From: Chloroflexota bacterium
GTDB taxonomy: Bacteria > Chloroflexota > Anaerolineae > JAAEKA01
Length of the DNA: 64,000 bases
Direction of reading: 5' to 3'
Assembly: GCA_029558955.1 (NCBI GenBank)
Contig: JAKQCW010000129.1
Coordinates: 1-64,000 of the forward strand
In this document: positions 5,682 to 9,891 of the stretch, one piece after another
How positions within the stretch are numbered: position 1 is the first letter of the stretch
Layout: the number at the start of each line of letters is the position of its first letter
Notes under the pieces: model-generated
The model's database searches: none
What the model was told of the DNA's origin: nothing
The model's input: only the letters and a program-made list of their open reading frames with translations
Position numbers and translations under genes: made by a program

Positions 5682-6719
5682 TCAGGCGACCTCCAGCAAG
5701 ATCTTGCCGAAATGCTCGCCCTGTTTCATGCGCTCCTCGGCCTGGCGCGCCTCGTGCAGCGGATAGACGCGGTCGATGGGCACGGCCAGCTTGCCGGCGA
5801 AGATCAGCCGCATCACCGCCTCGAACTCCGGCTGGCTGCCCATGGTCGAGCCGATGATGCTCACCTGGCGGCCAAAGAGGATGTTGATCGGCGTGGAACC
5901 GGTGTAGCCGGTGGTGCCGCCCACGGTCAGCAGCCGGCCACCTTTGCGCAGGGTGCGCAGGCTGGCGTCCCAGGTGGCCGCGCCCACGTTGTCCACCACG
6001 ATATCGACCCCCTGCTTGCCGCTGTGCAGATAGATGGCGCGCGACCAGTTGGGCTCGGCCTCGCGGTCCAGCACCCAATCGGCGCCCTGTTCCAGCGCCT
6101 GCTGGGCTTTCTCCGCGCCGCCGGCCACCACCCAGACCGTGGCGCCCAGCAGCTTGGCCAACGCGATGGTGAAGCTGTTGACGCCGCCGCCCGCGCCGAT
6201 GACCAGCACCGTCTCGCCCGGGCGCAGTTGCCCCTTGGTGATCAACATGCGCCAGGTGGTGACGGCCACGGTGGGCGCGGCCGCGGCCTGCTGCATGGAA
6301 AAGCCATCGGGCACCGCCATCAGGTTGCGCGCCGGGATCTTGACGAACTCGGCAAAGCTGCCGCGGGTGTGCTCGCCCAGGATGGCCCAGGTGTCGCACA
6401 GGCTGTGCTCGCCCCTCAAGCAGTAGGGGCAATGGCCGCACCAGAGGGTCGGGTTGGCGGTCACCGGTTGGCCGGCGGTCCAGCCAGTCACCCGATCGCC
6501 CATGGCTACCAGCGTGCCGCTGAAGTCGGCGCCGGGGATGTGCGGCAGCTCCAGATCGAGACCTTTCCACCCTTTGACGACAAACTGATCCAAGCGGTTG
6601 AGGGCCGCGTGCTGCACTCGCACCAGCGCCTCGTCGGGGCCAAGCTCGGGGACGGGCAGATCCTCGACGTACTCCAGCATGTCGAGGCTGCCGTGCTGAC
6701 GAAAGATAATTGCGCGCAT
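5682..6719 (-). CDS. Zinc-binding dehydrogenase / quinone oxidoreductase-like MDR protein
   Basis: A 345-residue medium-chain dehydrogenase/reductase. The GroES-like N-terminal domain carries a full structural zinc lobe, CGHCPYCLRGEHSLC, near residues 90-104. The Rossmann domain has VLVIGAGGGVNSFTIALAK near residue 170. The catalytic zinc ligands of true alcohol dehydrogenases are missing: the position of the first Cys reads LNRLDQF and the usual GHE is GADFSG, so a zinc-free reductase mechanism is more likely. I start it at 6719, where GGGAGG precedes the ATG and the domain begins (MRAIIFRQHG); upstream in-frame codons fall in a 50-bp repeat. Substrate unknown; it is probably a single transcription unit. 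Confidence 0.85.
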   Translation of the reverse strand: MRAIIFRQHGSLDMLEYVEDLPVPELGPDEALVRVQHAALNRLDQFVVKGWKGLDLELPHIPGADFSGTLVAMGDRVTGWTAGQPVTANPTLWCGHCPYCLRGEHSLCDTWAILGEHTRGSFAEFVKIPARNLMAVPDGFSMQQAAAAPTVAVTTWRMLITKGQLRPGETVLVIGAGGGVNSFTIALAKLLGATVWVVAGGAEKAQQALEQGADWVLDREAEPNWSRAIYLHSGKQGVDIVVDNVGAATWDASLRTLRKGGRLLTVGGTTGYTGSTPINILFGRQVSIIGSTMGSQPEFEAVMRLIFAGKLAVPIDRVYPLHEARQAEERMKQGEHFGKILLEVA

Positions 6720-6778
6720 CACACCTCCCGGAGTCGAGGGCGCTGTGGACTGAGGGTGTACGGCGGGCGATCGGCGGG

Positions 6779-6877
6779 GCGCCGCGCCGGTCGGGCCGGA
6801 CGAGACGCCCTCAGGATCAGGCAAGGGAGCGCCGCGCCGGTCGGCCGAACGTGACGCCCTCAGGATCAGGGCAACGA
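6779..6877. repeat. Two-copy 50-bp direct repeat
   Basis: Two adjacent copies of about 50 bp (6779-6828 and 6829-6877) share GCGCCGCGCCGGTCGG, GACGCCCTCAGGATCAG and flanks with a few substitutions. It occupies the gap upstream of the dehydrogenase gene and downstream of the PHP gene. Confidence 0.85.
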
Positions 6878-6904
6878 TACAGTGGCGCTATTTTACCACG
6901 CCTG

Positions 6905-9205
6905 TTACATATTGAACAATCGCAGCCATTCGCTGTTCAGGTCATCCCAGCGCGCGCCGTAGTAGACGTGGTCGACGCCGTCGGGGTCGCGATAGACCAG
7001 GTCTGCTGCGGTGTAGGAACGGCGCAGGTAGCCGATGTTGCCCATCCAGTTCACCTGGCTGTCGTCCAGCGGGCGGTCTTGTTCCAGGTGCATGCGCAGC
7101 GCGTAGTGGCGCAGGCTGCCCTCCTTGAGCATTCCTGGCAGCCAAAGCCGGCTCTCCACATGGCGGTTGCCCAGGTTGTGGAACTTGAACATGGGGTCGC
7201 TGCCGTTCTCCTGCACTTCCACTACTTCCAGTCCGGAGCGCGGCAGTTCCACCGCGATCAGCTCGCGCCATTCCGGCTGAAGCTGTTCCGCCGGCACCTC
7301 AGCGTAGAGCAAATCGCGCCCCTGGCGGTTGCGAAAGGCCAGGTTGCAGATGCAGGCGCCCGCGCGGCGCACCACCGAGACGATGCCCATGTTGCCGCGC
7401 CAGCGCACCTTGCTTTCCGCGGCCAGCCGGCCCGGCGCCGCCTTGCCTGGCGGGTCCACGTCGAACAGCGGTTCCCAGGCCTGGCCAATCCAGCCCACCG
7501 CCACGGCGAAGAAGATGCGTTCGATGCGGCCATCTTCGCTGCGGTAGACCAAATCGCACTTGGCGCGGTTGCGCTGGTCGTAGTATTCGTTCTCCCGATA
7601 GACGCGCCACAGTCCGAGCTGGCCCTGCCAGCGCACCTGATGATGCAGATCGTGCAGCCGCGGCCGGGCCTCCTGGTAATTCTTGATGGCGTAGAGCCAA
7701 ACCGAGGTGGCCGTGAATTCAGAAACCAGGCTCTCGCGGTTGGTGCGCAGGTCAACCACCCGGAAGTACTCGGTGTCGCCGCGCAGCGTCATCCCTACGA
7801 TCTCGACCCCCGACTTGGGCAGCTCGATGCCAGGGGCCAGCATGGGGGCATGGTCCAGCCGGGCGCCGGCCGGCGCCTCGTCCCCTTCCACATGCAGCAT
7901 GTCGATGATGTCGCCGTGGGTGGCCAGCGTCGTCTCGCCGTTGCGGCGCACATAGATCAGCCGGCCATTCTCCTCGCGCACATAGCAGGGCTTGCGGGCC
8001 AGGTCGCGCACCTCGATCTGCACGATCTCGTGCCCGTCGTAGTTGACGATGTCCACCGACCATTCAGGCTGCGGCGCGACCAGCTCGCTGATCGCGCCCT
8101 GGAAGGCGCGCATGTTGGCCGCGGCGTCGGTCAGGCCGGCAACCGGCAGCTTGGGGTCTGGATCCAGGCCCAGGAAGATGGCGCCGCCCCCGCTGTTGGC
8201 CAGCGCGGCCACGTGCCGGCTCATCTGGTCCGGGTCGTCGATGCAGGTCAGCAGGAGAATCTGATGGTTGGAAGGGCCGGCTGAGCGGGCCTCGGCCACG
8301 CGGTTGTAGCGCGCCACGTCGGAGACGAAGGGAACGCGCAGCCGGTCGAAGTCGTTGCTGGCGAAGAGCTTCAGCAGCGCGTCGAAGGTGGCCTCGGGGA
8401 GCATCACCTCGCTGGGCCGGTCGCCGACCCCCCAGCGGTGCATCGGGTCGTCCTGGCTTTGGGTTAGTCGGTGGGCGTCAGAGCCCTGCACGCAGAACAT
8501 GCGCCGCTCATAGCCCAGGTTCGTGCCGTCGTACCAGTGGGGACTGGAGAAGCCTTGCAACTGCGGGCTGTGGAACGCGCTGAACTCCAGCGCGTGCAGG
8601 CTGGGGTTTTGGGTTGCGCTGATGCGCAGCGCGCCGGTGGGCAGGTTGTTGGCGATGGCCAGCACCCCGGTGGGCGCGTTGATGTGGGCGGCAATGGCAA
8701 TGCCGCCGGCCTCGTGGATGATCTTGTAGGCTTCGAGGAAGGCCTGAGTGCCGGGCATGCCGGGGGAACCCAGGCTCATCTTCTCGTAGGGCACGCCAAG
8801 CTGGTGCAGCACCGCCTTGAGGCGTGGAATGCTGGCCTGGCCGCCGGGAGGAAAAACCCCCAGGGTATGGGAACCAAAACGGCAGGTGAACTCAAAACCT
8901 GGCAGAACTGTGATCTTTTCCAACAGCCGGCGATAGTCCGCCAGTTCTTCTCGCTCGTGTTCTTGGAGCCGGTTGCGCTGCTCAAGGCGCTCCAGAAAGT
9001 CAATCTCGTCGTACAGGGCCTCGTAACCAGCAATTGTGTTGTGGTCTGTGAAGGCAATAATGTCAAGACCTCGGCGCTCTGCTTCTTTGAGGACGTCCAG
9101 GTAACTGATTTCTTTTTCTACGTAGTCCTCAGAAGCCGGGGTATGAATGTGAAGGTCCATTCTGTACCAGCGCATGGTCTTCGGCAAGGCGTCTGCGTCA
9201 ACCAT
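6905..9205 (-). CDS. PHP phosphoesterase - AlbA_2 fusion with duplicated C-terminal region
   Basis: A 766-residue multidomain protein. Residues about 14-250 are a PHP metal-dependent phosphoesterase domain with all visible ligands: H19/H21 (LHIHT), D54-H55 (FTDHN), E105 (GFEFT), H174 (AAH) and D243/H245 (GSDAH). Residues about 311-430 match the AlbA_2 (Schlafen-type) domain: an AALANSGGGAIFLGLD core, IVQIEV, and an IYVRRNGETTLAT end. From 461 the sequence is internally duplicated: ELPKSGVEIV/ELPRSGLEVV at 461 and 653; VRWQGQLG, VRWRGNMG and VNWMGNIG at 524, 600 and 718; and DLVYRxxDG at 551 and 735. No signal peptide is present. AGGAG precedes the ATG. Substrate unknown; a nuclease or nucleotide phosphoesterase guided by AlbA_2 is an inference. 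Confidence 0.85.
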   Translation of the reverse strand: MVDADALPKTMRWYRMDLHIHTPASEDYVEKEISYLDVLKEAERRGLDIIAFTDHNTIAGYEALYDEIDFLERLEQRNRLQEHEREELADYRRLLEKITVLPGFEFTCRFGSHTLGVFPPGGQASIPRLKAVLHQLGVPYEKMSLGSPGMPGTQAFLEAYKIIHEAGGIAIAAHINAPTGVLAIANNLPTGALRISATQNPSLHALEFSAFHSPQLQGFSSPHWYDGTNLGYERRMFCVQGSDAHRLTQSQDDPMHRWGVGDRPSEVMLPEATFDALLKLFASNDFDRLRVPFVSDVARYNRVAEARSAGPSNHQILLLTCIDDPDQMSRHVAALANSGGGAIFLGLDPDPKLPVAGLTDAAANMRAFQGAISELVAPQPEWSVDIVNYDGHEIVQIEVRDLARKPCYVREENGRLIYVRRNGETTLATHGDIIDMLHVEGDEAPAGARLDHAPMLAPGIELPKSGVEIVGMTLRGDTEYFRVVDLRTNRESLVSEFTATSVWLYAIKNYQEARPRLHDLHHQVRWQGQLGLWRVYRENEYYDQRNRAKCDLVYRSEDGRIERIFFAVAVGWIGQAWEPLFDVDPPGKAAPGRLAAESKVRWRGNMGIVSVVRRAGACICNLAFRNRQGRDLLYAEVPAEQLQPEWRELIAVELPRSGLEVVEVQENGSDPMFKFHNLGNRHVESRLWLPGMLKEGSLRHYALRMHLEQDRPLDDSQVNWMGNIGYLRRSYTAADLVYRDPDGVDHVYYGARWDDLNSEWLRLFNM

Positions 9206-9257
9206 AATGCCATCTCCTGGTACTCTTTTTTGCTCAAGCTATTCGATTGTAACACTG

Positions 9258-9269
9258 TTGACAGGTCAA
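9258..9269. promoter_or_regulatory. Perfect palindrome upstream of the PHP gene
   Basis: TTGAC-AG-GTCAA lies about 55 bases before the PHP-AlbA_2 start, next to a possible minus-strand -10 (TACAAT). It could be an operator; no regulator is known for it. Confidence 0.3.
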
Positions 9270-9390
9270 TTCAGTAGAGAACCTCCGATTGGCGCGTCTT
9301 TGATCAGTATTCGTGCAGCGGGCTGTGCGGGCAGGAGGGCCTTTGGCGGCGCCGCGGCGGCCTGCTCCGTCACCTGCTGAGATCCGGCGA

Positions 9391-9891
9391 TCAGGCGCTT
9401 CCGTCGCTGTCTTGGGCGTGCAGCGCCTCCAGCAGGCGGCGATAGGTCTGATCCAACGACTCTGGTATGGTGCGCGTCATGCCAATCGTGGACATAAAGC
9501 TGGTGTCGCCGTTCCAGCGCGGCACCACATGGATGTGGACGTGGGACTCGATGCCGGCGCCGGCCGCTTTGCCCAGATTGGCGCCGACGTTGAAGCCCTG
9601 CGGCTGCATCACCTGCCGCAGCGCCGCCAGCCCCCGATTGACCAGCAGCATCATCTCGGTCAGTGTCTCGGCCGGCAGATCCTCCAGGCTTGACACGTGG
9701 GCGCACGGCGCCACCAACAGGTGGCCGTTGGTGTAGGGGTAGCGATTCAGGGCGATGAAGGCGGTCTGGCCGCGCAGCAAGACGTGCTCGTCCTCGTCGT
9801 TGCCGCAGACCAGCTTGTCACAGAACACGCAGCCAGGTGTCTTGTGGGCCATGATGTATTCCATGCGCCAGGGGGACCAGATCAATTCCAC
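9391..9891 (-). CDS. HIT-family nucleotide hydrolase/phosphorylase
   Basis: A 166-residue histidine-triad protein. The catalytic triad motif HVHIHVV has His at 117, 119 and 121. CVFC (Cys21, Cys24) together with a later His resembles the zinc-binding N-terminus of the Ap4A phosphorylase-like HIT branch, as does the opening WSPWRMEYI and the NGHLLVAP strand. The enzyme most likely cleaves dinucleoside polyphosphates or AMP/ADP adducts in the cytoplasm. The start is a GTG at 9891 with AGGA upstream; the family N-terminus begins there. It is followed by the PHP gene in the same direction after a 185-base gap, so co-transcription is uncertain. Confidence 0.9.
   Translation of the reverse strand: MELIWSPWRMEYIMAHKTPGCVFCDKLVCGNDEDEHVLLRGQTAFIALNRYPYTNGHLLVAPCAHVSSLEDLPAETLTEMMLLVNRGLAALRQVMQPQGFNVGANLGKAAGAGIESHVHIHVVPRWNGDTSFMSTIGMTRTIPESLDQTYRRLLEALHAQDSDGSA

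Follow-up and report, generated by a model that had tools for sequence, protein, structure and literature searches.

A conserved Chloroflexota protein family joins a TrlF/Ppl-type PHP domain to a Schlafen AlbA_2 domain and repeated C-terminal modules

The PHP-ATPase proteins TrlF and Ppl, the Schlafen nucleases (SLFN5, SLFN11, SLFN12, SLFN14 and CbCash) and the small PHP phosphoesterases are the described systems closest to the protein analyzed here. Many PHP proteins are small-molecule phosphatases, and Schlafen domains have been studied mainly as tRNases. For SLFN13, PMC5862951 describes a Glu/Glu/Asp triad (E205, E210 and D248 in the rat protein) as required for nuclease activity. The present protein shares with TrlF and Ppl the type of PHP domain, but has no ATPase and carries an AlbA_2 domain and C-terminal modules instead. 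It shares the AlbA_2 fold with the Schlafen nucleases, but lacks a conserved triad and has the PHP domain fused in front. With the small PHP phosphoesterases (9etk and the RNase RNM model) it has the first PHP motifs in common, but the match covers only some 60 residues at the start of the PHP domain, and the present protein has extra domains. In the open-licence PMC literature, no paper was found that pairs "Schlafen" with "PHP domain" or deals with this architecture, in agreement with a preliminary description of the DNA, which did not know it as a described system.

The gene lies at 6905..9205 on the minus strand of the window, a 64,000-nucleotide stretch of DNA from a Chloroflexota bacterium, and encodes 766 residues. 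It starts with an ATG at 9205, the strand having been left unstated in the preliminary description, and a ribosome-binding-like AGGAG (9214..9218, minus strand) is located 8 nt 5' of this codon. Open reading frame, Pfam, NCBIfam and module-profile analyses together confirmed the proposed combination of a complete PHP site, an AlbA_2 domain and related C-terminal repeats. The TrlF/Ppl-like PHP domain spans residues 11–250 (8456..9175, minus strand) according to Pfam, NCBIfam and a 90-row alignment. Its Pfam match at residues 17–69 (E 2.9e-5) scores 24.9 bits, slightly below the cut-off of 26.4, and the best-fitting NCBIfam models for this part are TrlF (E 9.2e-23) and Ppl (E 5.5e-20), both matching residues 11–252; the Ppl model of PADLOC gives E 2.9e-16, again for the PHP part only. 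The TrlF and Ppl matches end with the PHP domain, at profile positions 241 of 944 and 210 of 882, and the whole-protein scores are far below the cut-offs (80.9 of 350 for TrlF and 70.9 of 1000 for Ppl). The Pfam scan revealed no C-terminal AAA-like ATPase of the kind found in these proteins. The Schlafen AlbA_2 domain follows at residues 326–427 (7925..8230, minus strand), with a Pfam match of E 3.2e-12 and 47.4 bits against a cut-off of 25.3. Two long plus-strand open reading frames that overlap the gene, at 6710–8284 (524 aa) and 8471–9277 (268 aa), are regarded as shadows rather than genes, as expected at 64% G+C.

To describe the PHP site we used 90 homologues, which remained from 151 proteins after duplicates and those of at most 500 residues were dropped. 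Nine positions were checked, which we take to be the PHP metal ligands; all of the ligand residues of the PHP motifs are present in the window protein. Seven of them (D54, H55, E105, H113, H174, D243 and H245) are invariant in 90/90 homologues, and H19 and H21 are retained in 88 of the 90, the exceptions being gaps and one Met. The position of D27, presumably a possible further ligand, is occupied by Asp in 77 and by Cys in 11 of the 90. Comparison with a 90%-identical orthologue (L004) yielded a dN/dS of 0.097 overall and 0.045–0.22 by domain, and thus the whole length of the protein is under purifying selection. The PHP domain has the lowest value of all (0.045), the two full modules have 0.062 and 0.113, and the half-module between them is also constrained, like every other part.

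Each of the 90 homologues used for the tree carries the AlbA_2 domain, and the corresponding Pfam model matches 23/23 family members scanned at E ≤ 1; no homologue without this domain emerged from either set, which upholds the fusion. An AlbA_2 profile matches Schlafen structures, namely SLFN14 (E 1.3e-9) and CbCash (E 2e-6). Its catalytic acids are not conserved, however. Across 18 AlbA_2 rows no column is invariantly acidic, and the sole fully acidic column in 90 rows is 432, at the far end of the domain. In the long form of the family, to which the window protein belongs, the only mostly acidic column before A334 in the 90 rows is 331, where the window protein has His. At the places of the Schlafen triad, as located by sequence alignment around the A-x-A-N motif, where gaps could shift a position, neither the 18- nor the 90-row alignment holds a conserved acidic column in the long form. 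Since the PHP site is intact and the nuclease residues of the Schlafen domain are not conserved, catalysis can be attributed, as far as residue conservation indicates, to the PHP domain. The preliminary description considered a nuclease or a regulator plausible, and either may still apply. A Schlafen domain would then stand here without catalytic residues beside another hydrolase, and the family would represent a Schlafen fold used purely for binding.

The C-terminal part was previously described as two related halves, with the motif VxWxGxxG three times and DLVYRxxDG twice. Both counts are borne out in the 766-residue translation and the repeats are real, but the layout needs revision: it consists of module 1 (residues 460–584; 7454..7828), a half-module that corresponds only to the second half of the module (residues 597–651; 7253..7417) and module 2 (residues 652–766; 6908..7252), all on the minus strand. 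Pairwise alignment of modules 1 and 2 gave a score of 108, compared to a mean of 29.8, an sd of 5.4 and a maximum of 60 for 1000 shuffles. A profile built from 20 modules (two of the window protein and 18 of other genomes) matches at 460–584 (5.5e-35), at the half-module at 589–653 (1.4e-9) and at 652–766 (9.1e-35). This succession of a full module, a second-half-only match and a full module recurs in 28/28 long-form proteins, so that the "two related halves" are to be read as module, half-module and module, fixed in one subfamily; 62/62 short-form proteins have a single module. The relationship of the half-module to the second half of the module is supported at 98%, and an internal repeat within the module (first versus second half) is unsupported at 0.2%.

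The module has no stable match in Pfam, NCBIfam or PDB sequences, and no trustworthy hit reduces the C-terminus to a known domain. Weak Pfam matches, including PadR and DUF4757, are spread over 10 families, each seen in at most 7 of 20 members, and were discarded. A match to the TRAP (MtrB) RNA-binding fold at E 0.0035 with 20 rows gave way to none at E ≤ 10 with 58 rows and was taken as chance. The similarity to an OB fold (the N-terminal domain of the ExoVII large subunit, XseA) is weak, with hhalign giving 43.7% with 20 rows and 6% with all modules; the best of 112 control clusters reached 1.1%, yet with a raw score slightly above that of the module. Structure prediction for module 2 and for the full protein and a fold search with the module model, approaches recommended in the preliminary description, proved too weak to name a fold: the models have a pLDDT of 58.5 and a pTM of 0.48 for module 2 (a shallow alignment of six rows), and 39.7 and 0.27 for the full protein (a shallow alignment of three rows). 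Foldseek returned nothing at E ≤ 0.001 for the module model against the PDB, and its likeness to chromoshadow or chromodomain folds (best VIA-align Z 4.4) is below the trust level. The module profile matches 63 of 400 genomes of the phylum, of which 62 have the PHP family. In the other one (G021), the module forms the tail of a 509-residue protein (L180:2289-3815; E 2.7e-32), which has an NYN domain where the window protein has PHP-AlbA_2. NYN domains are putative RNases. A second full-length NYN-module protein was not found among 298 genomes of the class.

We propose that the protein is a chromosomal, metal-dependent PHP phosphoesterase whose substrate is RNA or an RNA-derived nucleotide, with the AlbA_2 domain and the modules as binding parts, a reading to which we give a probability of roughly 0.45. 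The PHP domain, being of the TrlF/Ppl type and the only domain with an intact site, would cleave phosphodiester or phosphomonoester bonds. RNA or an RNA-derived nucleotide seems the likeliest substrate, given the company of Schlafen and NYN domains. The AlbA_2 domain, having lost the Schlafen nuclease residues, may bind nucleic acid or dimerise, and the C-terminal modules would serve as accessory binding domains, doubled in the long-form subfamily. The role in the cell may be in housekeeping or stress. The protein is probably an RNA- or nucleotide-cutting enzyme and not a defence system. Points that speak against this reading are the destroyed PHP site of one genus, the isolated case of the NYN fusion, the action of PHP domains on small molecules as well, and a link to lon that belongs to the short paralogue.

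In that genus, g178, the PHP ligands are lost in 3/3 proteins examined (L181:3387-5603, L182:3725-5956 and L183:1152-3437; residue alignment), with H55 replaced by Ile or Leu, E105 by Thr or Ser, H174 by Pro and D243 by Ser, and the AlbA_2 domain and the module, half-module and module are retained. In eight g178 genomes of a 150-genome class set, the match to the family profile begins only near position 253, as expected from the loss of the PHP site; the proteins of three of these eight were examined residue by residue. As the AlbA_2 domain and the modules persist where the PHP site is destroyed, catalysis is not the sole thing selected. Together with the strong constraint on the full modules, this genus makes a DNA- or RNA-binding regulator the main rival, in which the AlbA_2 domain and the modules would be the main parts and the PHP domain a sensor or a minor hydrolase, for instance of a signalling nucleotide. 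We nevertheless regard it as unlikely, given that the PHP ligands are otherwise near-invariant, that the PHP domain is the most constrained of all, and that the Pfam scan revealed neither a helix-turn-helix nor any other known DNA-binding domain.

A HIT-domain gene (9391..9891, minus strand), part of the context and not of the protein, is the next gene upstream of the window gene. Relatives of it hold the corresponding position at L083 and L084, so that it is present in 3/3 loci of the window's family whose flanks are long enough (the L085 sequence stops before the upstream gene). HIT-domain proteins are often nucleotide hydrolases. This neighbour and the abundance of phosphatases among PHP proteins would fit a metabolic small-molecule phosphatase resembling histidinol phosphatase, with the AlbA_2 domain and the modules for oligomerisation. 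Such an enzyme appears improbable, since the HisJ-type NCBIfam model matches the window protein weakly (E 0.095, versus 9.2e-23 for TrlF) and the Schlafen fold would be better suited to nucleic acid.

Genome searches covering Chloroflexota revealed a family member in 63/100 genomes comprising the window's own and the nearest 99 (E ≤ 1.1e-42), in 62 of 400 evenly drawn genomes (E ≤ 1e-40), and in 108 of 150 genomes from the class of G212, which we take to be Chloroflexia. The phylogenetic profile called for in the preliminary description thus shows a widespread family, not an oddity; it is conserved and uncharacterised in Chloroflexota. A single-protein query of genome contigs found two Caldilineales metagenome-bin loci, one of them 90% identical. 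The protein was also compared with 50,697 phage records, which gave no match, and with 72,556 plasmid records, in none of which a site covered 80% of its length. One viral contig carries a 30%-identical PHP stretch only. An anti-phage defence protein, conceivable by analogy with Ppl, TrlF and the Schlafen tRNases given that the closest curated PHP domains are those of Ppl and TrlF and that PMC12839542 ascribes defence roles to several Schlafen-linked systems, is highly improbable in view of this distribution and of the context: the bulk of TrlF and Ppl is absent, the clades follow family groups, and, in line with the lack of defence context noted at the outset, none of the ten annotated neighbours of the window gene is a defence gene (those beyond were clustered only).

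A tree of the 90 proteins, calculated from the PHP-AlbA_2 part with the tail excluded, splits into 28 long and 62 short forms at a single branch with an SH-aLRT of 100. It was built by a quick method with a midpoint root, and some of its branches are long; the direction of the change between the forms is therefore not readable from it; on this tree, the extra modules appear to have been gained or lost once. The long form is common to four Chloroflexia families (groups f58, f68, f94 and f97) and to the window's own (f1), all on one side of the branch, which suggests that the window protein is a member of an old subfamily. Both forms occur together in G000, G001, G004 and G005, and the window's family has both. 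Some members are much longer, with frames of 913–1385 aa (L185:2205-6359, L186:1812-4700, L187:2536-5274 and L188:1622-4807) and long additional segments that precede, separate or follow the domains; a Pfam scan of L185, L186 and L188 assigned no domain to these segments.

The neighbourhood of the homologues, which had been proposed for inspection, was compared in 60 loci (36 short and 24 long) picked for long contigs and not at random. A lon gene on the same strand precedes the short form at 19 of its 36 loci, spread over 14 family groups, 18 times within 720 bp and once at 2.0 kb (L069-L073, L075, L076, L081, L082, L137, L138, L141-L145, L151, L153 and L154), and 14 of these have an hsp20 match farther upstream, one of them 7.8 kb off. 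The short form thus often lies by hsp20 and lon, and the window's family has the HIT gene upstream. Within the flanks covered, lon is found in 0/24 long-form loci, including the window. An extended version of the PHP phosphoesterase reading, which we offer only tentatively, is an enzyme of RNA turnover specific to Chloroflexota, whose PHP domain would be supplied with RNA by a nuclease-dead Schlafen domain and a novel RNA-binding module, the short paralogue belonging to an hsp20-lon stress operon and the long form being its separately regulated counterpart. If true, the short paralogue would tie RNA cleavage to protein quality control. The family, widespread and undescribed, offers ready comparisons in its two subfamilies, its PHP-dead genus and its hsp20-lon neighbourhood. 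Neighbour clustering found no gene recurring across most long-form groups; a gene of about 236 residues, directly or nearly directly downstream, is common to the f68 and f97 loci.
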